Origin: Verrucomicrobiota bacterium
Lineage (GTDB): Bacteria > Verrucomicrobiota > Verrucomicrobiia > Chthoniobacterales > UBA10450
Assembly (NCBI GenBank): GCA_003218415.1
Contig: QHNK01000076.1
Coordinates: forward strand, 1 to 36,505
Direction of reading: 5' to 3'
DNA length: 36,505 nucleotides
In this document: piece by piece, positions 23,156-36,505 of the stretch
Numbering within the stretch: position 1 is the stretch's first letter
Layout: every line of letters starts with the position of its first letter
Notes under the pieces: generated by a model
Database searches by the model: none
Seen by the model: only the letters and a program-made list of their open reading frames with translations
What the model was told of the DNA's origin: nothing
Position numbers and translations under genes: made by a program

Positions 23156-23169
23156 GCCCGCGCTTTTGT

Positions 23170-23242
23170 GACCCTATCGTCTAGAGGCCCAGGACACCGC
23201 CCTTTCACGGCGGTAACACGGGTTCGAATCCCGTTAGGGTCG
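23170..23242 (+). tRNA. tRNA-Glu (anticodon TTC)
   Basis: The acceptor arms GACCCTA (23170-23176) and TAGGGTC (23235-23241) pair perfectly. The anticodon stem CCGCC/GGCGG encloses the loop CTTTCAC with anticodon TTC. The T arm shows GGTTCGAATCC. The discriminator base is G, and CCA is not encoded. The length is 73 nt. The next gene starts about 10 nt downstream. Confidence 0.97.
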
Positions 23243-23251
23243 CACTGGTTG

Positions 23252-25336
23252 ATGCTGCTGATCACCGGCGTGTTGTTCGTGCTGGTCGTGACACTCGTGG
23301 ATCTGAAGCCGGTGGTGGATCAGAATTTTTTCTTTTCAACCAGCGATCCCGGTATCCAGCAAACCAAAAAGATCGAGCGACGTTTTCCCTCGCAGCCGGA
23401 AGTGATTCTGGCCGTGTCGTCGCGCGATATTTCTTCGCAGCGATATCTGGGTCGAATCCAAAAACTCACCCAACGCGTCCACACCATTGGCGGCGTCAGC
23501 GCGGTCAAAAGCCTGGCTGAAGGACCGAAGAGTTTTGACGACGCGCTAAAGAGCCCGTTTTGGAGCCGGTTGCTGGTGGCGCACGACCGGAAGTCAAGCA
23601 ACGTGATCATTTTCATGAAAGGCAGGCATACGGAACAGCCGATCCAGCGCCTGGAGCAGATCGTGCATGAGCTCGACGCGCCAGATTTTCGGATTCATAT
23701 CGCTGGTCCGCCGTACGTGGTGGAAATGCTTCGGCGGAGCCTCGCTCACGATTTCCGTTACTTCAGTCTCACAGCGGTTGTGTTGTTTGGTCTGACGATG
23801 GCCGCATTGTTCCGATCCGTCCGGTTGTTTATAGGAATGCTCTGCGCATGCGCGAGCGCTGTTTTATTGACTCTGCTCGTGCAATCGATGCTGGGTCACA
23901 AGATCGGAATCCTAACGGTGAACCTTGGCACGATCGTCTTCGTTATTGCGTTGTCGCACCTGGTTTATATGACGTTCAACTGGCAAACGCTCGCCGACCG
24001 CGCACACCGCATAGAAAAAGAGTCGCCGAACCTCGCGGGGGACGCGTTACGCATGACTTTCCCGGCTTCGTCTTGGTCGATGGTCTGCGCATCGTTAGGC
24101 TTCGCCAGTTTGCTCATTGTGCAGGCCAAGCCGCTGCGTGAGCTGGGATTTGGCGGCGTGCTCGGGACGGTCGTGGCGTTTGCCTGCGCCTATTTGATGT
24201 ATCCGGCGTTCCTGCGCTGGGCCGTGCCGCGCAAAAGCAAAATCGTAGAGGCGGAACCTACACACGCATTTTGGTCGCGCCGTTTTGGACTGCTCTCGTT
24301 AGGCGTCATTTTGCTTGGCGCGGTCTTGGGGCTGGGCCTGGTCAACGTGAACACCGACCCGAGCCTTATGGATTATTTCAAGCCCAATCAGGAACTGCGC
24401 GATGGATTGGAATTTGTGGATCGCACCGGCGGCTCGAATCCGCTCACGCTGGTTGTGTCCTCGTCAAACGGCGCCCTGCTGAACACGGACGCGGCTTACG
24501 AAAAGATGTGGAGGCTGCACGGCGCGCTGGAGAACCAGAAAAGCGTCGGGACTGTGACTTCGCTGCCAACTCTTCTGGCCGAAGGCGACCGCGTGCCGTT
24601 TTCGTTTCTCATCAGCTACGAAAAAATGATGGAGATCATGTCGCAACCCAAGTACGCGCGGGTCTCGAAAAGTTTTGTGACTGACGACCGCAAGGAAGCA
24701 GTGTTTATGCTGCGGATGGTCGAGGGGCGTCGTACGAAATATCGGGTGGACCTGGTAGATGATCTTCGCGCTGTCTGCCGCAAGTACGGATTCAAGGCTG
24801 ACCTCGTCGGCGGCATCTATTACTTGCAAGGGCGACTCGCCAAACTGGTCGCTGAAAGCTTGGTGACCGGTTTGTTCTGGCTGAATCTGTTGTTCATCGT
24901 GATCGCGTGGGTCGTCGCGCGGTCCGTTCGCGGCGCAGTGGCGATGATCGCGAGCGTGACTCTCGTGCCACTATCGATGCTTGGCGGCATCGGCTGGTTC
25001 CATGTGCCGGTGGACATCATTTCTGCGCCGGCCACGAACGTCTGTATCGGCATCGCGATTGATTCGATGATTCATCTCGTCTTCGGCGTTCGCCGTGCGC
25101 AACGCGACGGAAAGAAAGGCTGGGACGCATGGGTCTTCGCGCGCGAAGAACAATGGCGCGGAATCGTTTATTCGGATGTGATCATCGCCGCCGGTTTCGC
25201 CATTTTCGTGCTCTCGGATTTTCCACCGACACAACGGTTCGGTCTCGTCGTTCTCGCTGGATGCGTCATCGACATCCTGGCGAATCTATTCGTATTGCCG
25301 CTACTCGGCGGCGCGGAATTGAAAAAGCGCGTTTGA
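23252..25336 (+). CDS. RND-superfamily (MMPL) lipid exporter
   Basis: This protein of about 694 residues has the two-fold RND layout. Helix 1 is followed by a periplasmic domain (about 25-180), a block of five helices, a link at about 370, a second helix and periplasmic domain, and a final block of five helices. GIAIDSMIHLVFG, near the C-terminus, matches the GxxxDxxxH motif of proton-driven MMPL/HpnN proteins. Relatives move hopanoids, mycolates and other large lipids. The desaturase gene follows after 33 nt, so this is probably the exporter for the lipid made by the locus. The ATG at 23252 (or the TTG just before it) is the only sensible start, because upstream lies the tRNA. The first helix is correspondingly short. 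Confidence 0.87.
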   Translation: MLLITGVLFVLVVTLVDLKPVVDQNFFFSTSDPGIQQTKKIERRFPSQPEVILAVSSRDISSQRYLGRIQKLTQRVHTIGGVSAVKSLAEGPKSFDDALKSPFWSRLLVAHDRKSSNVIIFMKGRHTEQPIQRLEQIVHELDAPDFRIHIAGPPYVVEMLRRSLAHDFRYFSLTAVVLFGLTMAALFRSVRLFIGMLCACASAVLLTLLVQSMLGHKIGILTVNLGTIVFVIALSHLVYMTFNWQTLADRAHRIEKESPNLAGDALRMTFPASSWSMVCASLGFASLLIVQAKPLRELGFGGVLGTVVAFACAYLMYPAFLRWAVPRKSKIVEAEPTHAFWSRRFGLLSLGVILLGAVLGLGLVNVNTDPSLMDYFKPNQELRDGLEFVDRTGGSNPLTLVVSSSNGALLNTDAAYEKMWRLHGALENQKSVGTVTSLPTLLAEGDRVPFSFLISYEKMMEIMSQPKYARVSKSFVTDDRKEAVFMLRMVEGRRTKYRVDLVDDLRAVCRKYGFKADLVGGIYYLQGRLAKLVAESLVTGLFWLNLLFIVIAWVVARSVRGAVAMIASVTLVPLSMLGGIGWFHVPVDIISAPATNVCIGIAIDSMIHLVFGVRRAQRDGKKGWDAWVFAREEQWRGIVYSDVIIAAGFAIFVLSDFPPTQRFGLVVLAGCVIDILANLFVLPLLGGAELKKRV

Positions 25337-25369: not shown

Positions 25370-26398
25370 ATGCAGGCCGCGTTTTACCAGTCGGAATCTG
25401 ATCAGCCGCATCCGGGGCGGGCGCGAGCGGTCATTAAGGCGCATCCGGAAGTTCGCCAGTTGATGGTGCGCAATCCGTGGACTGCTTTGCTCGCGGTCTC
25501 GATCGTGATCCTGCAGACGGCGATCGCATGCTGGATGGGCACGCTTGGGTTCGGTTATTGGTGGCTGAGTCTACTTATCGCCTTTTGCATCGGCGCGTTC
25601 GCCAATCATGCCAACTACGTGATCATACATGACGCGACGCATAACCTGATTTTCCGCAGCCCAGGCTGGAACAAAATGGTCGGCATCATCGCCGATCTTC
25701 CCAACCTGGCGCCGGGCGCGATGGGGTTTCGCGTTTATCATTTGAAACATCATTCGCACCAGGGCGATTACGAATACGACGCCGATCTGGCGAACCATTG
25801 GGAGGCGCGCCTCGTGGGCAACAAGTGGTATCGCAAGGCGATCTGGCTAATGCTCTTTCCGTTCTTTCAGGTGACACGCCCGCCGCGGTTGAAGGCGGTC
25901 AAGATGTGGGACCGATGGTTCTCCACCAATCTCGCATGTGCGGTCGCGTACGACGTCGCGATCGTTTATTTCTGCGGCTGGGCCGGATTTCTCTATCTCG
26001 TGTTCGCTTTTTTCTTCTCCATTGGTTTGCATCCGGTGGGCGCACGGTGGATCCAGGAGCATTACACGTACGATTTCGACCAGGAAACTTTCAGTTATTA
26101 CGGGCCGATCAATCGGGTGGCGCTGAACATGGGCTATCACAACGAACACCATGATCTGCCATCGATCCCATGGAACAATCTGCCGAAGCTGCGCGCCATG
26201 GCACCCGAGTTCTATCAGAATTTAAAATATCACTCGTCATGGAGCCGACTGTTATTTCAGTTCGTTTTTGACAAGCGGTATAGTCTCTATTCGCGAGTCG
26301 AACGAATGAAACAAAGGGCAGGGTCCCAAGGGACTCCAGAAGCGACAAGCAGTCGGACTGGCGATCTTGATCTCAGTGCCCGGCCCATTAGTTTTTAG
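25370..26398 (+). CDS. Sphingolipid delta-4 desaturase-like (DEGS-type) membrane desaturase
   Basis: This 342-residue di-iron membrane desaturase has three histidine boxes: HDATH at 87-91, HLKHH at 124-128 and HNEHH at 257-261. Compared from memory with human DEGS1, it matches in N-terminal wording (QPHPGRARAVIKAHPEVRQLM against QPHADRRREIL...PEIKSLM), in GLHPVGARWIQEHY, in SYYGPIN, and most strikingly in NMGYHNEHHDLPSIP and LYSRVERM. DEGS introduces the 4,5-trans double bond of ceramide and carries the Lipid_DES N-terminal domain seen here. Four or more membrane helices are present. Ordinary bacterial acyl desaturases lack this N-terminus and C-terminus. The hydroxylase gene starts 2 nt after its stop. 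Confidence 0.88.
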   Translation: MQAAFYQSESDQPHPGRARAVIKAHPEVRQLMVRNPWTALLAVSIVILQTAIACWMGTLGFGYWWLSLLIAFCIGAFANHANYVIIHDATHNLIFRSPGWNKMVGIIADLPNLAPGAMGFRVYHLKHHSHQGDYEYDADLANHWEARLVGNKWYRKAIWLMLFPFFQVTRPPRLKAVKMWDRWFSTNLACAVAYDVAIVYFCGWAGFLYLVFAFFFSIGLHPVGARWIQEHYTYDFDQETFSYYGPINRVALNMGYHNEHHDLPSIPWNNLPKLRAMAPEFYQNLKYHSSWSRLLFQFVFDKRYSLYSRVERMKQRAGSQGTPEATSSRTGDLDLSARPISF

Positions 26399-26400
26399 TT

Positions 26401-27015
26401 ATGGCGGAGCGACTCTACGTCTCGAACAAGAACGAAACGGTTCGAATGTTCGAGAGCGATTTCATGGAATTGTTTTCGCGGGTGCACCCGGCAACTCCGT
26501 TGGTCCTTTACCTGCCGGTAGTCGGCTCCATGCTTTACCTCGCGCTGTGGCGACAAAAATTATCGATCCTAGCGGTCGCAGGATTTTTTCTGCTGGGTGT
26601 TCTGCTTTGGACATTGCTCGAATACCTCATCCACCGGTACATATTTCACTACGAACCCAAGACACGCCTGGGGAAACGGCTGCATTACATCATTCACGGC
26701 GTGCATCACGATTATCCAAACGATGCGCGGAGGCTCGTCATGCCGCCGAGCATCAGCGTGCCGCTTGCTTTTCTTTTTTACGGCGTGTTCCTGCTAATCT
26801 TCGCGCGCTTCGCGTCGAGCGCATTCGCGGGGCTGGTTTTTGGTTACATTTGTTACGACATGCTTCACTACGCGACCCATCATTTTCCGATGAAACGCGG
26901 CGCGTGGCTATGGCTGAAGCGGTATCACCTGCGCCATCATTACAGGGATGATCACGTGGGATACGGCATCAGCTCGCCGCTTTGGGATTACGTCTTTCGG
27001 ACCACGCGGAAGTAG
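26401..27015 (+). CDS. Ceramide fatty acid 2-hydroxylase-like (FA2H/Scs7) protein
   Basis: This 204-residue member of the fatty acid hydroxylase superfamily has four membrane helices. The histidine clusters follow the Scs7/FA2H order: HRYIFH (78-83), HYIIHGVHH (95-103), HYATHH (156-161) and HLRHH (176-180). WTLLEYLIHRYIFH, DARRLVMPP and GYGISSPLWDYVF are close to the human FA2H wording, as I recall it. FA2H lacks carbon-chain specificity for free lipids and hydroxylates the alpha carbon of the ceramide acyl chain. The cytochrome b5 domain of the eukaryotic protein is absent, so a separate electron donor is needed. It is tightly coupled to the desaturase gene. Confidence 0.86.
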   Translation: MAERLYVSNKNETVRMFESDFMELFSRVHPATPLVLYLPVVGSMLYLALWRQKLSILAVAGFFLLGVLLWTLLEYLIHRYIFHYEPKTRLGKRLHYIIHGVHHDYPNDARRLVMPPSISVPLAFLFYGVFLLIFARFASSAFAGLVFGYICYDMLHYATHHFPMKRGAWLWLKRYHLRHHYRDDHVGYGISSPLWDYVFRTTRK

Positions 27016-27159: not shown

Positions 27160-27365
27160 GCCTGCAAACAGCGAAGCCGTAGTTTACTAAAATCTTGTCC
27201 TGAAATCCGAACTCCGCTAGATTGGCTGCCCCGACACGGAACTCCGCGGTATGCAGATGTAGCGGACAACTTCGTAAGGAATCTAGTGAAGCACAAAAAA
27301 TCTCAATTTTGCTGGGAAACATCGTTCGCAACGACGGGAGCGAGCGAACCACAGTATATCGTTTC

Positions 27366-28622
27366 ATGAACGAGGACCCGGCAAAACTTAGTCTGAGCAA
27401 TTTTCTGGCGGGCGAAAGCGACGATCCGCTGCAAGCTCCAGCGAGCTTTACGGACTGGATACGTCTTGGTGCGTGGGCGGTTGAATTGTACGAACCTGAG
27501 CTCCTCGCCACCGCAGATGCGCGCACCGTTATTAACTATGGTGGAAAACCGCGGCCGGTTATTAATCTCTGCTCCTACAATTATCTCGGCCTTGCCAATC
27601 ATCCCGAGGTGCTGGCCGTTGCCCATGAGGCTCTGAGGACGCACGGGATGGGGGCGTGCGGTTCGCCGATGCTCTCAGGAATGACGGACCTGCATCGCGA
27701 ACTGGAGCGGCGCGTCGCGAAATTTCTCGGACGCGAGGACGCGATGCTTTTCAATAGCGGGTTCGGTGGCGCGCTGGGCACGATCTCGGGCCTACTTCGC
27801 AAGAGCGATGTGGCCATTCTGGACAACCGTTCGCACCTTAGTCTTCGCGACGGCGCCGTGTTGTCCCGGTGCAGGACAGAGAAGTTTGAGCATAACGATC
27901 CAGCCTCGCTTGATGTGGCATTGACCCGTCAAAAAAGGCGTCGGCAGCTCGTGATTGTCGAAGGCATTTATTCCATGGACGGCGACTTCGGGAACCTGAG
28001 GGAATTGCTTGCTGTCGCGGAGTCTCATGGCGCCAGTGTTTTCATTGACGAAGCGCACTCCATGCTGGCATGCGGCGAGCATGGCCGTGGAGCGGCTGAG
28101 AAGTTTGGCGTAGAAGATCGCGTCCCGCTCCTTTATGGAACGTTCTCCAAGGCGTTCGGCGCGCTGGGAGGTTTTGTTGCGGGCTCGAAAGAGACGCTGC
28201 AATACCTGCGTTTCTATGCGCATCCTTATGTTTACTCCTGTGCGCTGCCGCCGGTGGTGATTGCGGCCATTTTGAAGGCGCTCGAGCTCGGCACCAGTCA
28301 GCCGGAATTGCGCGCGCAACTTTGGGAAAACGCCGATTACTTCCACGCGCAACTTCGAAGCCTTGGACTCGATAGCGGAGCATCGACAACCTATGTGATG
28401 CCGATCGTCATCGGCGATCGAGAGCGGATGTATCGGCTTGGGCATGAACTTCGGCGGCGTGGTCTTTGGGTTGCGCCGGTGGATTATCCGGCTGTGCCGC
28501 AAAATCGAATCTGTTTCCGTGCCTGCGTAACCGCCAAGCATACGCGTGCAGACTTGGACGAAGCCCTGAATATTCTCGCGGACACGCTCGTCCCTGCGAT
28601 GCTACAAAGGCAGAGCGCCTGA
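27366..28622 (+). CDS. spt: Serine palmitoyltransferase-like alpha-oxoamine synthase
   Basis: This 418-residue fold-type I PLP enzyme has the Schiff-base lysine Lys262 in YGTFSKAFGALGG, Asp228 in DEAHS (for the PLP nitrogen) and His157 (ring stacking, in DNRSHLSL). The DEAHSMLACGEHGRG and GTFSK wording is that of serine palmitoyltransferase. BioF and KBL normally show TLGKALG-type lysine motifs. SPT condenses serine with an acyl-CoA or acyl-ACP to 3-ketosphinganine, the first step of sphingolipid synthesis. The ATG at 27366 is chosen because the upstream open frame is repeat-derived. It heads a run of four closely spaced genes with two phosphotransferases and a GNAT. The nearest alternative is another alpha-oxoamine synthase such as CqsA. 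Confidence 0.84.
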   Translation: MNEDPAKLSLSNFLAGESDDPLQAPASFTDWIRLGAWAVELYEPELLATADARTVINYGGKPRPVINLCSYNYLGLANHPEVLAVAHEALRTHGMGACGSPMLSGMTDLHRELERRVAKFLGREDAMLFNSGFGGALGTISGLLRKSDVAILDNRSHLSLRDGAVLSRCRTEKFEHNDPASLDVALTRQKRRRQLVIVEGIYSMDGDFGNLRELLAVAESHGASVFIDEAHSMLACGEHGRGAAEKFGVEDRVPLLYGTFSKAFGALGGFVAGSKETLQYLRFYAHPYVYSCALPPVVIAAILKALELGTSQPELRAQLWENADYFHAQLRSLGLDSGASTTYVMPIVIGDRERMYRLGHELRRRGLWVAPVDYPAVPQNRICFRACVTAKHTRADLDEALNILADTLVPAMLQRQSA

Positions 28623-28640: not shown

Positions 28641-29579
28641 TTGACGTCTCAACCGACAGAGACCTCGCATTCGCGCGTCGCAGCCACCTACAAAGCGCGC
28701 GAGGTAGAAGGCGTCCTCGATCTGTATTTTTACAGGCCGTTAGGGTTCCGGCTCGCCGAGTTTTTCGCGCGACTCAAGATGACGCCGGCGGCTGTGACAT
28801 TGCTGGGCGGCGTCTGCGGCGTCGTTGCGGGACACCTTTATTACTATCGTGATTTACGCATCAATATCATGGGCATGCTGCTGCATGTTTGCGCTAATGC
28901 GCTCGACAACGCGGACGGTCAGCTCGCGCGTTTAACTCAGAGGGAAAGCCGCAAAGGCCGCATTATCGACAGCGTCGCCGACCATTTGGTGTTCGTGAGT
29001 ATTTATCTGCATCTGACTCTCCGCTGTGTGTTCGAAGGTTCGTCACCGGCGATCTGGGTTCTCGCTTTTGCCGCTGGAATCAGTCACGCGTTGCAAGGAG
29101 CGACGGCGGACTATTACCGCAGCACCTACCTTTACTTTACAGCAACCGGAGGGCGAACCGGATTGGACTCCTCCTCTGGAGTCCGATCAGAGTATCAGAA
29201 GTGGAGCTGGCATCAGAGACCATGGGACAAACTTCTCCTCGCGCTGTATTTGAATTTCACTCGCCAACAGGAAATGCTCGCGCCTCGTCTGAAAAAGCTG
29301 CGCGAGACAGTCACCGAACTTTTCCACGGCCAAATCCCGGGTTGGCTACAGCAGCGTTATCAAAACCTGGCTGGCCCGATGCTGAAGTGGTGGAGGTTAC
29401 TCATGACGAACACGCGAATGCTGGTTCTATTTGCGCTCCTGCTCATAGGCCGGCCGATTTACTTTTTCTGGTTCGAGCTCATACCCTTTAATTTGCTGTT
29501 CGTTTACCTGATTTTCCGCCAGGAAACTATAGCTGAGTCGATGCAAGAAGTTGCCCAGAAATGGAGAGACTTGGCCTGA
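28641..29579 (+). CDS. CDP-alcohol phosphotransferase, first copy
   Basis: This 312-residue membrane protein has the complete CDP-alcohol phosphotransferase motif from Asp89 to Asp114 (DNADGQLARL, then Gly106, Asp110, Asp114), which binds the metal ions and the CDP-alcohol. Several helices follow (about 50-68, 75-88, 117-150, 258-300). A long soluble insert at about 165-250 is distinctive. The enzyme moves a phospho-alcohol from a CDP carrier to a lipid hydroxyl. The start is TTG at 28641, 18 nt after the SPT stop. No ATG precedes the conserved N-terminus. The acceptor is plausibly ceramide, by context only. Confidence 0.84.
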   Translation: MTSQPTETSHSRVAATYKAREVEGVLDLYFYRPLGFRLAEFFARLKMTPAAVTLLGGVCGVVAGHLYYYRDLRINIMGMLLHVCANALDNADGQLARLTQRESRKGRIIDSVADHLVFVSIYLHLTLRCVFEGSSPAIWVLAFAAGISHALQGATADYYRSTYLYFTATGGRTGLDSSSGVRSEYQKWSWHQRPWDKLLLALYLNFTRQQEMLAPRLKKLRETVTELFHGQIPGWLQQRYQNLAGPMLKWWRLLMTNTRMLVLFALLLIGRPIYFFWFELIPFNLLFVYLIFRQETIAESMQEVAQKWRDLA

Positions 29580-29595
29580 ATCGCCATCTAAGTTC

Positions 29596-30729
29596 GTGTC
29601 GGATATTGAAATTTCAGAAGTCAACTCGCGTCGGGAGCGCAGCGCGTTCATCAAATTTCAATGGCAAATTTATTCGAATGATCCCGCGTGGGTGCCGCCG
29701 TTGATCATCGAACGGAAAACGTTCCTCGATCGAAAGCGGCATCCCTTTTACAGGCACGGCGACGCGGCCTTATTCCTGGCGCGGAAAAATGGCGAGATCG
29801 TTGGTCGCATCATGGCCAGCGATGATCCCAATTACAATTCGCTGCACCAATCAAACGTGGGCTGTTTTGGCCTGTTCGAATCCATCGACGATCAGGATGT
29901 AGCTACTGCGCTGTTTGACGCTGCGGCCCGTTGGCTTCGCACGAAGGGGCGGACTGAGATGATGGGGCCAATCGATTATTCAACCAATTACGTCTGCGGC
30001 CTGTTGATCGATGGATTCCAGTTTCCGCCCACCATATTGACCGCGCACAATCCGCCGTACTACCGCGACCTGATCGAGAGATGCGGCTTTACAAAAGCAA
30101 AGGATTGGTACGCGTGGTGGTTCGTCGATCCATCAAAAGCCGTGGCGCATTTGCAACGATTGGCCGCACGTTTCAATGCGCGCTGTCCCGCCATTATCCG
30201 TCCGGCGAACCTTAAGGATCTTCGCGATGAAAGCAGACGGCTTCGAGAAATTTACAATCGGGCATGGGAAAAGAACTGGGGTTTCGTGCCGTTTACAGAA
30301 GCGGAGATCGAGTTCATGACGCACGAGCTCAAGCCGCTCGTTATTCCGGAGTTCGCGCTCATTGCCGAAGTTGGCGAAGAGCCAGCCGGCTTCATTCTGG
30401 GTGTGCCGGACATCAACGTCGCCCTGCGTCATATCAACGGCCGGCTTATGGCTTTTGGATTGCCAATCGGCCTCCTAAAACTTCTATATTACAAGAACCG
30501 CACGCGGACTGCGCGGCTTATCGCGCTTGGCGTGATTGAAAAATATCGCCGTAGCGGTATTGCCGAAATGCTCGTGCTGCGGATCGTCGAAGACGCAATG
30601 ATCAAACGTGGATTCGCGGGAGAACTCAGTCTCACGCTTGAAGACAATTTCATGATCAACCGTTTTCTCGAAGCAATGGGAGCGCAGCGCTACAAGACAT
30701 ATCGAATTTTTGACAGGACGCTGACTTAA
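29596..30729 (+). CDS. GNAT-fold acyltransferase, candidate bacterial ceramide synthase
   Basis: This 377-residue protein appears to hold two GNAT-like halves. The N-half has NDPAWVPPLIIERK, HPFYRHGDAALFLARKNGEIVGRI and MMGPIDYSTNY...HNPPYY. The C-half has LIALGVIEKYRRSGIAEML, an acyl/acetyl-CoA loop. This WVPP/NPPYY family is the one to which, as I recall, the Caulobacter acyl-CoA-dependent ceramide synthase bCerS belongs. If so, it N-acylates sphinganine made from the SPT product. GTG at 29596 is preferred, being 16 nt after the preceding stop. A TTG 45 nt upstream overlaps the previous gene. It overlaps the next gene by one base (TAATG), so it is cotranslated. Confidence 0.78.
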   Translation: MSDIEISEVNSRRERSAFIKFQWQIYSNDPAWVPPLIIERKTFLDRKRHPFYRHGDAALFLARKNGEIVGRIMASDDPNYNSLHQSNVGCFGLFESIDDQDVATALFDAAARWLRTKGRTEMMGPIDYSTNYVCGLLIDGFQFPPTILTAHNPPYYRDLIERCGFTKAKDWYAWWFVDPSKAVAHLQRLAARFNARCPAIIRPANLKDLRDESRRLREIYNRAWEKNWGFVPFTEAEIEFMTHELKPLVIPEFALIAEVGEEPAGFILGVPDINVALRHINGRLMAFGLPIGLLKLLYYKNRTRTARLIALGVIEKYRRSGIAEMLVLRIVEDAMIKRGFAGELSLTLEDNFMINRFLEAMGAQRYKTYRIFDRTLT

Positions 30730-31436
30730 TGAGCAAGCCCCAAGACGGTTTCGTTTCGCGGTTTTTGAATCGGCCGATTTCGCGCCGGATAACGAGGTTT
30801 CTGCTCAAGGTTCCGATTCATCCCAACGGGTGGACGATATCGATCTTTGTTTTGCCGCTAATCGCGGGCGCATTCCTGGTGCGCGGCGATTACGCCAGCG
30901 TCGTCATTGGCGCGGCTATTTTTCAAGCGTTCAGTATTCTCGATGGTTGCGACGGCGAAATTGCGCGCGCCAAAAATTTGGAATCGACCTTCGGGGAACG
31001 TTTGGATTATTTCTGCGATTTTCTCGCAAGCCTTATCTACGTTCTCGCGCTTGGGTTAGGGCGTCATCATTCAGTCGAAGGAATCGTCTGCGCCGGCTTC
31101 ATCGCGGCTAACGAATGGCTTCTGCGAGGTGGCAAGAACGAAATGCAGATTGTTTCGGCGATGCTGCACGAGTCGTATTATGCGAGGCACCACGGAATGA
31201 TCGGGCATTCCGGTTTGCTGAATCTCGGTGAACGATTTGTGTGGTGGCTCTTTCAGCTGACCAAGCGGGACATGGCTATGCTCGTTTTTCTCATGCTCGC
31301 GTTAGTCGACTTGGCTGACTGGATCCTTCATCTTTGGACGATTGTTGCCGCAGCAAGCCTGATTCTCAGCACGATAGCCACGATCAGATCCAGCGTGGCC
31401 GATGGCGATGTTGTTACGCGCGAGCCGCGATCGTAA
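30729..31436 (+). CDS. CDP-alcohol phosphotransferase, second copy (DIPPS-like)
   Basis: This 235-residue membrane protein has the full motif at 72-97: DGCDGEIARAKNLESTFG, then Asp93 and Asp97. The DGCDGEIAR form and the size resemble the phosphotransferase half of IPCT-DIPPS proteins, which use CDP-inositol. About six helices are present (36-52, 56-72, 95-118, 170-190, 195-225). It starts on the last base of the GNAT stop codon. With the nucleotidyltransferase encoded convergently, it could make an inositol-phosphate-containing lipid or head-group precursor. CDP-glycerol, CDP-choline or another CDP-alcohol cannot be excluded. Confidence 0.83.
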   Translation: MSKPQDGFVSRFLNRPISRRITRFLLKVPIHPNGWTISIFVLPLIAGAFLVRGDYASVVIGAAIFQAFSILDGCDGEIARAKNLESTFGERLDYFCDFLASLIYVLALGLGRHHSVEGIVCAGFIAANEWLLRGGKNEMQIVSAMLHESYYARHHGMIGHSGLLNLGERFVWWLFQLTKRDMAMLVFLMLALVDLADWILHLWTIVAAASLILSTIATIRSSVADGDVVTREPRS

Positions 31437-31468
31437 TTCCCGCCTGTCGACCGGAATGATGTCCCATC

Positions 31469-32221
31469 TCATTTGACTAAGCGTGACGGGCGCTTAGCCA
31501 TCTCTTTCTCGGCATGCTGGAACATTTTCGGAGTATCGATGTCTTGCCACCAACCCTGGCCGATATCTATGGCACGGACTTTGTTATCGGCTGCCATTAA
31601 TCGAACTCCATCAGCTAGGCTGCAATCATTTCGGCGGCCGTCGGATTTCGCTCGCTTGAGATAGCCGAAGATTTCCAGCGGGCAAACAAGCAAACCGGTA
31701 TCAACCGCATCGTAATCCCGCAGATCTTTTCCGATGCCGATCACTCTGTTTCCCCGGGTTTGGACTTTCATCGCATCTTCCAAATCGAAAATGGAACCGA
31801 GTTTTCGATCCACCGCGATGTTTAGGAAATCGGAATCAAAAGAATCGAGCAGGTGATCAACGATCACATCGTCGAAAAGGTGATCGCTCATTGTCAGGAG
31901 AAATGGCCCCTCGACGTGATCGGCCGCCGCGAATAAAGAAATGCCATTCTGTTTTCGCCAATCGCAATTTTCGATGAAGAACGCGCTGACGCCAGAAGGA
32001 ACCAACCGTTTGAGCTGTGCAATCATGCGCTCGCTTTCGTAGCCGACCACGAAGTGGACGGTTTTGATCCCTGCGCGGGTCAATGCATCCAGAGTGTACG
32101 AGATTAAGGGGCGGCCGAGCACAGGGACGAGCGGTTTCAGGAAAGTCTTATCCGAACTGCGCAGGCGCGAGCCTTCCCCGGCGGTCAAAACTACTGCTTC
32201 GGAAACAGGAGCCATAAACAT
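31469..32221 (-). CDS. Sugar/alcohol-phosphate nucleotidyltransferase, IPCT-like
   Basis: This 250-residue GT-A-fold nucleotidyltransferase has the signature GEGSRLRSSDKTFLKPL (15-31). The segment ENCDWRKQNGISLFAA and MSDHLF at 111-116 recall archaeal and Thermotoga inositol-1-phosphate cytidylyltransferase, where the metal-binding Asp lies in this SDH motif. It ends with WWQDIDTPKMFQHAE, normal for the family. It would activate an alcohol phosphate to a CDP form for the two CDP-alcohol phosphotransferases. LicC-type phosphocholine cytidylyltransferase is the main alternative. ATG occurs at 32221 and again at 32215. A stable hairpin ends exactly at the first ATG. Confidence 0.82.
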   Translation of the reverse strand: MFMAPVSEAVVLTAGEGSRLRSSDKTFLKPLVPVLGRPLISYTLDALTRAGIKTVHFVVGYESERMIAQLKRLVPSGVSAFFIENCDWRKQNGISLFAAADHVEGPFLLTMSDHLFDDVIVDHLLDSFDSDFLNIAVDRKLGSIFDLEDAMKVQTRGNRVIGIGKDLRDYDAVDTGLLVCPLEIFGYLKRAKSDGRRNDCSLADGVRLMAADNKVRAIDIGQGWWQDIDTPKMFQHAEKEMAKRPSRLVK

Positions 32222-32269: not shown

Positions 32270-33070
32270 TCATATTCCGTAGTATCTCTTCAGTCCCCAG
32301 AGGCGAACGCGCTGCGGAAGAAATCTGAAAATCATCGGTGCAATTTTGGATTCGAACACATTGCCCACCGTTTTCCGAGGCGGCGGGCGCACGGCGTTGA
32401 CTAAGCTTAGAACATGCCGGGCGACGAGGTCCGGGCCTGGTGCCTTTTTCATGTTGCGCTCGACGATTTCCCAAGTCTTGGCGATTTTTGAGTCGTAGCG
32501 CTCGGCTTTCGCGCTCTGGACCACGCTCTTGTTAAATTGCGTGGAAATGTCGCCCGGCTGAAGGTCAACAATGTGCACCGGGGAATCGGCCAACTCGAGC
32601 TGGATTGACATGGTAAAGGCTGCCAGCGCTGCTTTAGCGGAGTTGTAAGCCGCCATGAACGGCACTGGAAGCCGGGAGGCTAGCGAAGTGACGTTGATGA
32701 TCAAACCTTCGCCACGCGCCTGCATGTGGCGCAACGCGAGCTGCATCAATTGGATTTGACCGAAAACCAGAATTTGAAACTGACTGGCGATCGTTTCCAT
32801 GGGCAGGAACTCAGCGGGGTCAAAGTGACCGGCGCCGGCGTTGTTGATCAAAACGTCGAAGTAACCAGCTTCCGTGAGCGCAGCATTGAATGCATCTTCG
32901 ATCGAAAGCCGATCGGCCAGATCGAGACGGACCGCATGGCATCGCGGCATTTTGGGGATGCGTTGCAAATTGCGCGATGTACCCCACACTTCGTGACCTT
33001 CACCGACGAGTAACTTTGCAATGGCAAGACCGATGCCAGAGCTCGCACCGGTGATAAAAATGTGTTTCAT
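32270..33070 (-). CDS. Short-chain dehydrogenase/reductase, candidate 3-ketosphinganine reductase
   Basis: This 266-residue classical SDR has the NAD(P)-binding GASSGIG at 8-14, NNAGAGHF at 76-83 and the catalytic Ser129 / Tyr142 / Lys146 (AYNSAKAAL), followed by LQPGDISTQF. The C-terminal hydrophobic/basic part (about 225-266) suggests membrane association. In this context it could reduce the 3-keto group of the SPT product, as KDSR does in eukaryotes. The Caulobacter enzyme CerR is from a different SDR branch, as I recall. The ATG at 33070 overlaps the stop of the GT-C gene (ATGA). The family is certain and the substrate is inferred. Confidence 0.8.
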   Translation of the reverse strand: MKHIFITGASSGIGLAIAKLLVGEGHEVWGTSRNLQRIPKMPRCHAVRLDLADRLSIEDAFNAALTEAGYFDVLINNAGAGHFDPAEFLPMETIASQFQILVFGQIQLMQLALRHMQARGEGLIINVTSLASRLPVPFMAAYNSAKAALAAFTMSIQLELADSPVHIVDLQPGDISTQFNKSVVQSAKAERYDSKIAKTWEIVERNMKKAPGPDLVARHVLSLVNAVRPPPRKTVGNVFESKIAPMIFRFLPQRVRLWGLKRYYGI

Positions 33071-34563
33071 GAAGAGCGACGCCGTTCGACAAGATAAAGC
33101 CGGACACGGCGATGTTGAGGAAAAATCAACATTGAGCGCCTGAATTCGGCGAGCTCTATCAAGTAACAATCTTTCTGCTTCAGGGATGGATCCTCAGTAT
33201 AAATCGCCGCCGCATTACGCAGCACTTCTTCATCCTCCTCGGAGATGGGGAGATGGTCGAGTATTTTGAATTGCGGCGCGTACCACTGGGCGGAACGGCG
33301 CGTAGTAGGCAGAATCAAGACCACGTTGCCGCGCTTCGAAGGCGGATAAAGCCTCTCCAAATAGCGCACGAGCCGGACGGGCGGTGCTTCATCACGGTGA
33401 TTTTCTATCCCTAAAGGAACGGCGATATAAAGGAGCAATGCCGGAACGCAGATCGCCGAGAAGTTCCACGGGCTTGGTAATCGTAAAAGACCGCGAAGCA
33501 TCACGACAAGAAGCAGCGGAAAGACCATGAGATAGTACCTTTGATCGCCCGGAAGAGCGATAAAAGTGATCGCAATTTGCACGAAAAGCCAGGGAGCGTG
33601 AAACTTCCAAAATCGCCGATCCGTCGCATCGTATCCGTACCGAATATAAGCAATCGCCGCACACGTTGTAAGAACGATACCGGCTCCGAGCACGCGGGGC
33701 GATTGAATAAAGCCGAACCCTTTCGAAAACCACCCGAGAATGTGGGAGGCAAACCGCACTCCCAGATAGTGAGGAGTCCAATCGCCGGCCCCGATATAAA
33801 TGGAAGGTCGATTTAGACGCCAGCGCCATTGGCCGTACACGAGCTCGGGATAAACCCGCCAGAATCCCCCACTCGGCCGGAGTTGAGACTGTATGTACCA
33901 CATTGGCAAAAGCCAGGTCAGACAACCCGCGACCAGCAGCGCATACGAAAGACACCATGTCTTCGCATCCACCGAGCCTTTCTTGAGCGGAATGCCAAGA
34001 ATCAGTGCGACTACGGGAAACAATTGCGGTCGCGTGCCGGCTGCGGCCGCCCCCATGAGAGCAGCCCAGACAATCAGGCCGCGCTTCTTCTGTTTTAAAA
34101 AGTAGACAGCGGCAAGTAACTCCGTGCTCATGAAACCGGCTGCCAACATGTCGGTCAGCGCCTTCGTAGCGGTCATCCAAATCACTGGCGTCATCAGCAA
34201 GGAAATTGCGACCCACCATGCGAGCTTCTCGGAAAACTGCGCGCGAATAATCGAGAACCAGGCCGCGATGAAAAGTCCGCCGCCAAATGCCGAAACGCAG
34301 TAAAGCGAAGATTCCGTTCCGGTGTGGAAAAGTTTCGTCCCGAGCCAGCCTAAAAAAATGAAGAGTGGATACCCGGGTGGATGCGGCTGGTGATGCCAGA
34401 GATCGAATGAGCGCACGCCCATCGCAAATTGCACAGCATCGATTTCATCGAGCGCCGGCGAATGTGTGAAAAAATAAAGCGTGAAGGCGGCTAAAAAAAG
34501 GAGCACGCCTTTAATCACGGATTGCTGGCTCGAATCGCCTTGTTCCATCTCGGTTGAGGTCAT
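33067..34563 (-). CDS. GT-C-fold membrane glycosyltransferase, DUF2723/PMT-like
   Basis: This 498-residue protein has about ten membrane helices. The first periplasmic loop carries acidic DEID (39-42) and QPHPPGYPLF (60-69), typical of DUF2723-like and PMT/ArnT-type GT-C enzymes, which use polyprenyl-phosphate sugars. A soluble C-terminal part (about 390-498) contains VVLILPTTRRSAQWYAPQFK and YLIELAEF. It is the first gene of a minus-strand trio with the SDR and nucleotidyltransferase genes, overlapping the SDR by 4 nt. It might glycosylate the lipid head group on the outer face of the inner membrane. Confidence 0.8.
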   Translation of the reverse strand: MTSTEMEQGDSSQQSVIKGVLLFLAAFTLYFFTHSPALDEIDAVQFAMGVRSFDLWHHQPHPPGYPLFIFLGWLGTKLFHTGTESSLYCVSAFGGGLFIAAWFSIIRAQFSEKLAWWVAISLLMTPVIWMTATKALTDMLAAGFMSTELLAAVYFLKQKKRGLIVWAALMGAAAAGTRPQLFPVVALILGIPLKKGSVDAKTWCLSYALLVAGCLTWLLPMWYIQSQLRPSGGFWRVYPELVYGQWRWRLNRPSIYIGAGDWTPHYLGVRFASHILGWFSKGFGFIQSPRVLGAGIVLTTCAAIAYIRYGYDATDRRFWKFHAPWLFVQIAITFIALPGDQRYYLMVFPLLLVVMLRGLLRLPSPWNFSAICVPALLLYIAVPLGIENHRDEAPPVRLVRYLERLYPPSKRGNVVLILPTTRRSAQWYAPQFKILDHLPISEEDEEVLRNAAAIYTEDPSLKQKDCYLIELAEFRRSMLIFPQHRRVRLYLVERRRSS

Positions 34564-34707: not shown

Positions 34708-35598
34708 ATGTTTCCGCTGATTTGCGCGGCCCTTGTCATTTTGGGTGTGCTCGGTCTCAAGCGTCTGCTTCCTGGTAGTAGAAAGCATCGGCGACAAGTC
34801 CGTTTCATCCGTGAAACCTTGGCAAGCAGCAAGAAATCAGGCGATCGCCGTGTGATTGTTTCGCTTTCGACGGTACCAGAGCGGATGGGCAACCTAGGGC
34901 CGACGATTCGCTCTCTGCTGAGACAGACGCGGCCACCGGATGAGATCGTCCTGGCCATCCCGGAATTTTCGATTCGGGAACAACGGCCTTATGCAGTGCC
35001 CAAACATGTTTCGCGTTGGCAGCGAATGCGCATTCTGCACTGTCGCAGGGATTGGGGACCGGCTACAAAGTTTATCCCCATCGTTCGAGAAGAATTAGCG
35101 GCGGGCCGGGGAAATACATTGATCATGGTGGTGGACGATGATCGAATGTATCCGCGAGATGCACTCGAAACGTATCTCCACTACAACAAGCAATTACCTG
35201 ACGCGGTTCTTTGTTTTCGCGGTGCCGCAATGCCGCGAAATCTGGATTGGCGACACGCCAAGATGATTCGCGCGCGTGAGCTTCGCCAACCGCAACCCGC
35301 GGCGGTGATCACAGGGTGCGGAAGCTATTTGATCCAACCGAGGTTCTTCGACGAATCGCTCTGGGATTATTCCCAAGCGCCGCAGGGAGCATTTTACATG
35401 GACGATATTTGGATCAGTGGGTGTCTCGCTCGTCGCAACGTGAAGAGATATGTTGTGCCTGCATCGGCCATGATGCGAAGTGTGTTTCGCCAACGGCGGA
35501 CCTTATCGCTGCACGATGTTCCTGACGGACGTCAATACAACAACAACGAAACGATCGCACTTTTCGGGGACGCCTGGGATGTCTTCGCTTCGTATTAA
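34708..35598 (+). CDS. GT-A-type glycosyltransferase-like protein
   Basis: The protein has 296 residues. A short N-terminal membrane anchor (1-21) precedes a Rossmann-like domain. It contains VSLSTVPERMGNLGPTIRS, the metal-binding VVDDDRMYPRDALE (Asp143-145) and a later FYMDDIWISG (Asp232-233), which could be the acceptor base. The layout is that of an inverting family-2-like glycosyltransferase. The N-terminal SLSTVPERM wording recalls an uncharacterised group also seen in eukaryotic algae. The donor and acceptor are unknown. It is divergent from the GT-C gene (144-nt gap) and its stop overlaps that of the flippase at a shared TTAA. Confidence 0.76.
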   Translation: MFPLICAALVILGVLGLKRLLPGSRKHRRQVRFIRETLASSKKSGDRRVIVSLSTVPERMGNLGPTIRSLLRQTRPPDEIVLAIPEFSIREQRPYAVPKHVSRWQRMRILHCRRDWGPATKFIPIVREELAAGRGNTLIMVVDDDRMYPRDALETYLHYNKQLPDAVLCFRGAAMPRNLDWRHAKMIRARELRQPQPAAVITGCGSYLIQPRFFDESLWDYSQAPQGAFYMDDIWISGCLARRNVKRYVVPASAMMRSVFRQRRTLSLHDVPDGRQYNNNETIALFGDAWDVFASY

Positions 35599-36505
35599 GG
35601 ACGTTTGTCCTTGCGATGGATATGGTGCTGCAACCATTGAACACCAAAGACCGCCAGGAAAGCCGCAGCGCTGACGACTTGTCCGGCAATTCCGCTCAGG
35701 AATGTGCGGCAGATGAGCGCGGGAACAAGCGCAATTCCCGCGGCGATCAGAGGTGGGCGAATGTCGCTCCATGAATCTTTCCAGTGAAAGATCCATCGCA
35801 GTGTCGTGTAACGCAGAATGCCTTGAACGACGTAGGGCAAAAGGATACCGAAGGCCGCACCCATCACACCGAAGCGCGGAATTAACCAGAGAAGCCCGGC
35901 AGCAGCAACGGTGCACGTGATCGAAGAATGCAGAAGATTCAAATGTGGCCGTTGCACCATGATTACTGTTTCGCCTAATGCCACAAACGCGTTGATAGCA
36001 CTGGCAAGAGCGACGATGCCGAGCCAAACACCGCCCTGCTGGAATGCTGGACCGTAGATGAGCAGAATCGTGCTGCCGGCGAGCGACATCACTGCTACCA
36101 GCGGCAACAGGATCCAGAGCATCCACTGAGCAAGTCGAGCGTAAGTAGCGGCAGCCACGTCGTGATCGCCCGTCGCGGTCATACCCGCTACGACTGGCGC
36201 GAAAATGGGGTTGAAAGTCTGATTAACTTTTCGCAGCCCGTTCGCGGTGCCGATGACTGCACTGTAAACACCGACGGTTACAAGCGTCACACCCGGCGCG
36301 CGTCCAACGAAGTAGCCAAGCATGATGAGATCCAACCGGGCAATGAACGCGTTAATCAGCTGATAAATGCTGATGGGAGCCGCATAGGCGATTAGCAACC
36401 GTGCTTCGGCGAGAGGGGAAACAACCTCCGTTTGTGCCGGAATATGGCGAAACAACGTTGAGGCGAGTGCGAGCGCGACAAGCCCTGATGCTGCCGTTCC
36501 GACGA
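35595..36505 (-). CDS. Wzx-like polysaccharide/lipid-oligosaccharide flippase (partial)
   Basis: The gene is open to the window edge and its N-terminal half is missing. The visible 302 residues hold about eight membrane helices with the MATE/Wzx pattern: LIMLGYFVGRAPGVTLVTVGVYSAVIG, NQTFNPIFAPVVAGM, and a polysaccharide-synthesis C-terminal domain. Such proteins flip undecaprenyl-linked oligosaccharides, or lipid-linked sugars, across the inner membrane. Being convergent with a glycosyltransferase gene and near a GT-C gene, it points to a glycan or glycolipid export function. The C-terminus ends in a basic HHIHRKDKRP tail. Confidence 0.88.
   Translation of the reverse strand, partial: VGTAASGLVALALASTLFRHIPAQTEVVSPLAEARLLIAYAAPISIYQLINAFIARLDLIMLGYFVGRAPGVTLVTVGVYSAVIGTANGLRKVNQTFNPIFAPVVAGMTATGDHDVAAATYARLAQWMLWILLPLVAVMSLAGSTILLIYGPAFQQGGVWLGIVALASAINAFVALGETVIMVQRPHLNLLHSSITCTVAAAGLLWLIPRFGVMGAAFGILLPYVVQGILRYTTLRWIFHWKDSWSDIRPPLIAAGIALVPALICRTFLSGIAGQVVSAAAFLAVFGVQWLQHHIHRKDKRP

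Follow-up and report, generated by a model that had tools for sequence, protein, structure and literature searches.

The gene cluster

The DNA considered here, referred to as the window, is the whole of a 36,505-nucleotide contig (QHNK01000076.1) from a Verrucomicrobiota bacterium. It encodes two CDP-alcohol phosphotransferases, here called PT1 and PT2, and a nucleotidyltransferase, NT, that resembles CTP:inositol-1-phosphate cytidylyltransferases (IPCTs); the three proteins may together attach an inositol head group to a lipid. The contig, C199, is part of a metagenome-assembled genome (MAG) of 2.05 Mb that is 87% complete, and the closest named relatives of NT belong to Candidatus Udaeobacter and other Chthoniobacterales MAGs. 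The central genes and their motifs are as follows:

28641..29579, + strand: PT1, CDP-alcohol phosphotransferase, 312 aa (PF01066 above the Pfam cut-off)
28905..28982, + strand: PT1 catalytic motif DNADGQLAR-x8-G-xxx-D-xxx-D, residues 89-114 (alignments)
30729..31436, + strand: PT2, CDP-alcohol phosphotransferase, 235 aa (PF01066 above cut-off)
30942..31019, + strand: PT2 catalytic motif DGCDGEIAR-x8-G-xxx-D-xxx-D, residues 72-97 (alignment)
31469..32221, - strand: NT, nucleotidyltransferase, 250 aa, proposed IPCT (PF12804/PF00483 above cut-off)
31937..31948, - strand: NT motif N92-G-I-S95, nucleotide-binding side (alignment)
31880..31891, - strand: NT motif M111-S-D113-H114 (alignment)

On the plus strand, the genes run in the order MMPL transporter, desaturase, hydroxylase, serine palmitoyltransferase (SPT)-like enzyme, PT1, ceramide-synthase-like GNAT protein and PT2, the PT2 start codon overlapping the stop of the GNAT gene by one base. 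After PT2, the minus strand carries NT, a short-chain dehydrogenase/reductase (SDR) and a PMT_2-like protein. Both the block and its order are kept across the host family, in the mapped relatives and in most of the loci fetched. Judging from this family-wide gene order and from the E-values, the motifs and matches of PT1, PT2 and NT are, at the level of sequence, more than chance.

A first-pass annotation of the window had placed two CDP-alcohol phosphotransferases and an IPCT-like cytidylyltransferase at 28641-32221 and had singled out DGCDGEIAR in PT2 and ENxxxxxxNGxSL...MSDH in NT. The three open reading frames lie at exactly these positions, and both motifs are real, with their catalytic residues intact. 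What it overlooked is the ceramide-synthase-type GNAT gene between PT1 and PT2, and that the whole set sits in a ceramide cluster. Its interpretation is, overall, partly supported.

NT as a probable inositol-1-phosphate cytidylyltransferase

The best PDB sequence matches of NT are the IPCTs of Archaeoglobus fulgidus and Thermotoga maritima (E 1e-17). Among the NCBIfam models, the IPCT/DIPPS model NF041135 scores best, at 120 bits, with the next model at 84 bits. Both NT and PT2 (72 bits) fall below the 580-bit cut-off of NF041135 for the bifunctional enzyme, the two genes being split here. The AlphaFold2 model of NT (pLDDT 91) has as its top fold match the T. maritima IPCT (4jd0, E 1.9e-21, TM 0.86), and the Archaeoglobus enzyme, with which the first-pass annotation had proposed a structural comparison, comes second (2xme).

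The nucleotidyltransferase signature G-x-G-x-R...K is present, with G15, G17, R19 and K29 invariant. Further along are E84-N85...N92-G-I-S95-L and M111-S-D113-H114, in which N92, G93, S95, M111, D113 and H114 are invariant in 20 relatives from about ten phyla. NT and the A. fulgidus IPCT share N-G-x-S, M-x-D-H and I-G-K-x-L-x-x-(Y/F)-D-x-x-D-T-G in the alignment. A tree of NT was not used as proof, its backbone being unresolved and the T. maritima IPCT and the Sphingomonas row lying on long branches.

Could NT have a different substrate? CpgD, which acts on phosphoglycerate in the sphingolipid pathway of Caulobacter, also has an IPCT-like fold (PMC12275187), and the window ceramide synthase is homologous to that of such clusters. 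NT might thus act as a CTP:phosphoglycerate cytidylyltransferase like CpgD, or as some other COG1213 enzyme such as LicC, and the cluster would then make ceramide phosphoglycerates as in Caulobacter. In CpgD, glycerate is contacted by Asn110 and, via water, by Ser170 (PMC13228409). At these positions, aligned through CpgD-like enzymes and not CpgD itself, both NT and the A. fulgidus IPCT have Met and Asp (Met111 and Asp174 in NT), while the CpgD-like proteins of Roseomonas retain N and S. CpgD-like enzymes also have LNGDT where NT and the A. fulgidus IPCT have MxDH, and the single CpgD-like nucleotidyltransferase that was scored reached 45 bits on the IPCT/DIPPS model. Residues, profile scores and the pervasive linkage to inositol-1-phosphate synthase speak against a CpgD-type substrate for NT, which was therefore rejected, and this whole alternative is very improbable.

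Bacteroidota also have second-tier nucleotidyltransferases (L267-L271) that are 25-30% identical to NT and adjoin a CDP-alcohol phosphotransferase. A Udaeobacter-type cluster at 56-80% identity occurs in a sequence titled Acidobacteria (L157, QIAB01000086.1), which was probably mis-binned or transferred.

Linkage to inositol-1-phosphate synthase

The genome search for inositol-1-phosphate synthase that the first-pass annotation proposed found the gene, INO1 (PF01658), on contig C102, at its end. The genes next after it on C102 are those found after INO1 in relatives, and C199 and C102 therefore probably flank a gap. In 18 relatives, NT and INO1 lie on one contig, 6-25 kb apart. Among 197 genomes sampled from the order, only the host family has NT at E<1e-50 (53 genomes); INO1 occurs in 58/68 members of that family versus 9/129 other genomes. 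Within the family, INO1 also occurs in 10 of the 14 genomes with no strong NT match, so that its presence alone does not discriminate there; incomplete MAGs probably explain this in part.

The association extends to other groups. In Sphingomonas parapaucimobilis, the NT homologue is the final gene of a phosphotransferase-INO1-NT operon, and NT adjoins INO1 in loci of Myxococcota and Gammaproteobacteria. An IPCT-type NT, separated by a clear score gap from weaker matches, was found in 24 of 248 Bacteroidota genomes, with INO1 directly adjacent and co-directional at 23 of the 24 loci; the remaining locus has an NT-PT2 fusion and no INO1 in the 1.5 kb seen. All of the NT-bearing genomes examined outside Chthoniobacterales (20/20) have INO1. 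However, the base rate of INO1 in Acidobacteriota is high (71/119), and therefore more weight is given to a paired test in that phylum (11/11 genomes with NT versus 60/108 without, p 0.002) and to physical adjacency, four of the Acidobacteriota genomes having NT and INO1 no more than about 1 kb apart.

The first-pass annotation had named two findings that would speak against inositol: an active site closer to those of LicC or GlmU, and a genome lacking inositol-1-phosphate synthase. INO1 is present, and the active-site residues of NT fit IPCT better than GlmU, LicC or CpgD-type enzymes. With the PDB, NCBIfam and fold matches and the INO1 linkage, there is strong support for reading NT as an inositol enzyme, and NT very probably makes CDP-inositol.

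PT2 and the IPCT/DIPPS fusion

PT2 has the residues of the CDP-alcohol phosphotransferase motif DxxDGxxAR...GxxxDxxxD (D72-G-C-D75-G-E-I-A-R, G89, D93 and D97), and its best matches are AF2299 (4o6m, E 1.9e-18) and the IPCT-DIPPS protein 4mnd (E 3e-13). NT and PT2 are each homologous to one half of IPCT/DIPPS, in agreement with the earlier suggestion that the two halves are split into separate genes here. Fusions of NT and PT2 exist in four phyla (Methylomirabilota, Gemmatimonadetes, Acidobacteria and Myxococcales), and the Methylomirabilota fusion aligns with 4mnd over both domains (E 6e-49). In the A. fulgidus (4mnd, 2xme) and T. maritima (4jd0) systems, the motifs are the same, as is the juxtamembrane segment DGF(V/I)SRxxNRxIS. 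In most members of the host family, this segment of PT2 is preceded by an additional N-terminal domain (about 160 aa), as in AF2299, while PT2 of the window genus lacks that domain.

Given the homology to DIPPS and IPCT and the existence of fusions, the module might be thought to make the soluble solute di-myo-inositol phosphate, with PT2 as DIPPS and the ceramide genes as mere neighbours. Against this, the block is conserved together with the ceramide genes across the family, and PT1 would be left unexplained. Moreover, di-myo-inositol phosphate is known mainly from hyperthermophiles. Such a solute pathway is hardly to be expected here. Compared with IPCT/DIPPS, the window has split genes, an additional PT1, a ceramide cluster and a mesophilic host, and the acceptor is probably a lipid and not inositol phosphate.

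Some Acidobacteria have PT2 fused to an LPG_synthase_TM domain, beside NT (L164 10707-13148; L172 10644-13148), and a homologue of the LPG-synthase-type protein has been reported beside both Bacteroides inositol clusters (Heaver et al., PMC9246714). A PT2-like match in Sphingomonas taxi was set aside, as it sits in a polysaccharide locus. A further CDP-alcohol phosphotransferase, the third, occurs in L062 (9971-12416) and near INO1 in many relatives. It has a long, degenerate-nucleotidyltransferase-like N-terminal domain and is often paired with a radical SAM enzyme; in G008, G019, G091 and G175, it and not PT2 lies between the genes for ceramide synthase and NT.

PT1

PT1 likewise carries the phosphotransferase motif (D89-N-A-D92-G-Q-L-A-R, G106, D110 and D114). 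In an alignment of 29 sequences, D89, D92, G93, A96, R97, G106 and D110 are invariant, and D114 is conserved in at least 90%. Over its full length, the phosphotransferase from the Sphingomonas operon is homologous to PT1 (29% over 286 aa, E 4e-24); its resemblance to PT2 is only local. In a profile search of Bacteroidota, taking full-length matches at E<1e-35, PT1 was found in 15/24 genomes with NT versus 0/24 without (p 1e-6), and seven of the 15 have PT1, INO1 and NT in that order in one operon. A match of the Sphingomonas phosphotransferase on a Parabacteroides plasmid has a different neighbourhood and was dropped.

These operons and the co-occurrence with NT tie PT1, and not only PT2, to CDP-inositol. 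The first-pass view that PT1 may take a different substrate, leaving PT2 as the inositol enzyme, is therefore probably wrong. The long soluble insert that it ascribed to PT1 corresponds to extra helices at about residues 178-228 of the structural model (pLDDT 89); the helices stand, and their solubility is presumed. A fold search with this model gave weak matches at the superfamily level, which do not identify the substrate. That PT1, PT2 or both use CDP-inositol is quite probable.

Another route would dispense with NT. In Bacteroides thetaiotaomicron (BT_1523) and mycobacteria, a phosphatidylinositol phosphate (PIP) synthase uses CDP-diacylglycerol and inositol phosphate, and PT1 or PT2 might do the same. 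Both proteins score weakly on a PIP synthase model (34-39 bits), and the fold of PT1 resembles PIPS about as well as AF2299. However, the scores on NF045883 and NF052561 (21-39 bits) are far from the cut-offs of 170 and 350, and NT, needless for a PIP route, is fused to or in an operon with both types of phosphotransferase. A PIP synthase role is thus highly doubtful.

The ceramide genes and the probable lipid acceptor

What is the acceptor of the inositol head group? The genes that flank and separate PT1, PT2 and NT are these:

25370..26398, + strand: fatty-acid/sphingolipid desaturase (PF00487 and N-terminal PF08557, sphingolipid delta-4 desaturase, above the Pfam cut-off; kept near the SPT-like gene in relatives)
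26401..27015, + strand: fatty-acid hydroxylase, probable ceramide or sphingoid-base hydroxylase (PF04116; synteny)
27222..28622, + strand: alpha-oxoamine synthase, probable SPT (profile scores and context)
29551..30729, + strand: GNAT-type, bacterial ceramide synthase (bCerS)-like protein (homology to a Roseomonas cluster protein)
32270..33169, - strand: SDR, KdsR-like (3-ketodihydrosphingosine reductase), probable ketosphinganine or ceramide reductase (NF049977, 160 bits)

For the SPT-like enzyme, the BioF score is 341 bits and the SPT models give at most 320 bits, all under the equivalog cut-offs, and its assignment therefore rests on context; judging from the length of most relatives (416-438 aa), the ATG at 27366 is the probable start codon. 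The counterpart of the bCerS-like protein in a Caulobacter-type sphingolipid cluster of Roseomonas (36% identity over 386 aa, E 1e-73) is taken to be the bacterial ceramide synthase of that cluster. The SDR scores 160 bits against a cut-off of 400 and adjoins NT in relatives. The delta-4-type desaturase and the hydroxylase (25370-27015) suggest a desaturated or hydroxylated, eukaryote-like ceramide.

These surroundings point to ceramide as the acceptor and not to inositol phosphate as in DIPPS. The distribution of the ceramide synthase gene was surveyed in the 20 NT-bearing genomes outside Chthoniobacterales, a small number of genomes that are not independent of one another. It is present in 9/20, including 3/3 of those with a strong PT1. 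It is lacking in 11/14 genomes with PT2 and present in 6/6 without (p 0.002), so that PT2 often works without ceramide, while PT1 tracks with ceramide.

Alternatively, CDP-inositol may be made and its acceptor be diacylglycerol. PT1, PT2 or both would then produce phosphatidylinositol, and inositol would reach ceramide, if at all, by later exchange. This is the order that Heaver et al. proposed in 2022 for the cluster of NTP transferase, CDP-alcohol phosphotransferase and HAD hydrolase in Prevotella and B. vulgatus (PMC9246714). Outside the order, the ceramide synthase gene is missing from most genomes with PT2, and there the acceptor of PT2 is probably something other than ceramide. On the other hand, PT1 and the ceramide synthase gene are adjacent in a conserved ceramide cluster. 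No HAD hydrolase and no PAP2/AUR1-type exchange enzyme was found among the ten window genes scanned with Pfam, the whole genome not having been searched for a PAP2-type enzyme. Diacylglycerol as the acceptor is thus unlikely. In the window cluster, the acceptor is likely to be ceramide, and the balance tips slightly towards PT1 as the main enzyme for the transfer; the acceptor of PT2 is less certain than that of PT1.

The proposed route

From the gene content, motifs, folds, linkage, fusions and co-occurrence described above, we infer what NT, PT1 and PT2 act on and which lipid results. INO1, located elsewhere in the genome, would convert glucose 6-phosphate to inositol-1-phosphate (1L numbering), from which NT, with CTP, would make CDP-inositol and pyrophosphate. 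The desaturase, hydroxylase, SPT-like enzyme, ceramide synthase and SDR would supply ceramide, maybe desaturated or hydroxylated. PT1 would then transfer phosphoinositol from CDP-inositol to ceramide, yielding inositol phosphorylceramide and CMP. PT2 would also use CDP-inositol, with diacylglycerol, the inositol lipid itself or again ceramide as possible acceptors. In our estimate, the probability is roughly 0.65 that this region directs the synthesis of inositol phosphorylceramide by way of CDP-inositol.

Several observations weigh against this route. NT and INO1 are on different contigs of the MAG. The SPT-like enzyme, SDR, NT, PT1 and PT2 all score under the NCBIfam equivalog cut-offs. The association of PT1 with ceramide is based on few genomes, and some genomes with NT and INO1 have neither PT1 nor the ceramide synthase gene. 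Finally, relatives in one genus (g4) have a divergent phosphotransferase at the PT1 position, in an operon with its own nucleotidyltransferase, a HAD protein, a class III aminotransferase, a Gfo/Idh enzyme and a 270-aa protein. In those relatives, PT1 may carry another head group, which would leave PT2 as their inositol enzyme.

The g4 operon lies between the SPT-like and ceramide synthase genes (L064 4229-9837; also L066, L074, L076 and L085-L086). With its Gfo/Idh/MocA protein, aminotransferase and second nucleotidyltransferase, it looks like a second, amino-modified head-group pathway.

Relation to known inositol lipid pathways

In silico work has already proposed a CDP-inositol route for Prevotella and B. 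vulgatus that involves a HAD hydrolase and proceeds through phosphatidylinositol (PMC9246714); a 2023 review still called it not fully characterized (PMC10191378). That cluster, compared here by its description and not with the BVU_RS13095/BVU_RS13105 sequences, likewise combines an NTP transferase, a CDP-alcohol phosphotransferase and an inositol-1-phosphate synthase (MIPS). The window genes differ in standing inside a ceramide biosynthesis cluster, with INO1 several kb off in relatives; a HAD protein does occur in the g4 operon. What is new is thus the ceramide-cluster setting, the lack of HAD and PAP2 proteins among the window genes scanned and the implication of a distinct phosphotransferase family.

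The Caulobacter ceramide diphosphoglycerate pathway (CpgD and CpgA) also has a COG1213-type cytidylyltransferase, a CDP-alcohol phosphotransferase and a GNAT-type ceramide synthase. It differs from the window in the IPCT-type residues and INO1 linkage of NT, and no ceramide kinase was found among the window genes scanned. B. thetaiotaomicron (BT_1522/1523/1525/1526) and fungi with AUR1 share with the window the use of MIPS and the predicted product, inositol phosphoceramide. However, theirs is made via PIP or phosphatidylinositol and AUR1-type exchange, whereas the predicted donor here is CDP-inositol. The predicted route to inositol sphingolipids thus differs from those of fungi, plants and Bacteroides.

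There is about an even chance that PT1 defines a family of Kennedy-type inositol phosphorylceramide synthases in Verrucomicrobiota, Bacteroidota, Alpha- and Gammaproteobacteria and Myxococcota, with CDP-inositol as the direct donor and without phosphatidylinositol, PIP or AUR1-type exchange. Bacteria with inositol ceramides but neither of the two known clusters might owe these lipids to such a family. PT1 and PT2 are also set apart here as two transferase families linked to CDP-inositol. Candidatus Udaeobacter ranks among the most abundant bacteria of soil, and if the route is correct, it makes fungus- or plant-like inositol ceramides by different chemistry; no relevant description of sphingolipids in Udaeobacter or Verrucomicrobia was found in the open-access papers searched. 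Novosphingobium acidiphilum has an unexplained inositol dihydroceramide and neither known cluster (PMC9246714). The Sphingomonas PT1-INO1-NT set is a candidate explanation, should the operon occur in N. acidiphilum.

Neighbouring transport genes

At the edges of the cluster are two genes that may act in transport:

23168..25336, + strand: MMPL/RND-type transporter, possible lipid exporter (PF03176; module membership inferred from position only)
35595..36455, - strand: Wzx/MATE-type flippase, truncated by the contig end (full-length relative has PF01943/PF01554)

Among the mapped relatives, a full relative of the MMPL protein adjoins the cluster in one genome (G184), and the flippase adjoins the SDR in many. 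Between the flippase and INO1 (L065 4280-9611 and equivalents) are a conserved MacB-type ABC exporter, an HlyD protein and two outer membrane efflux proteins, which possibly export the lipid.

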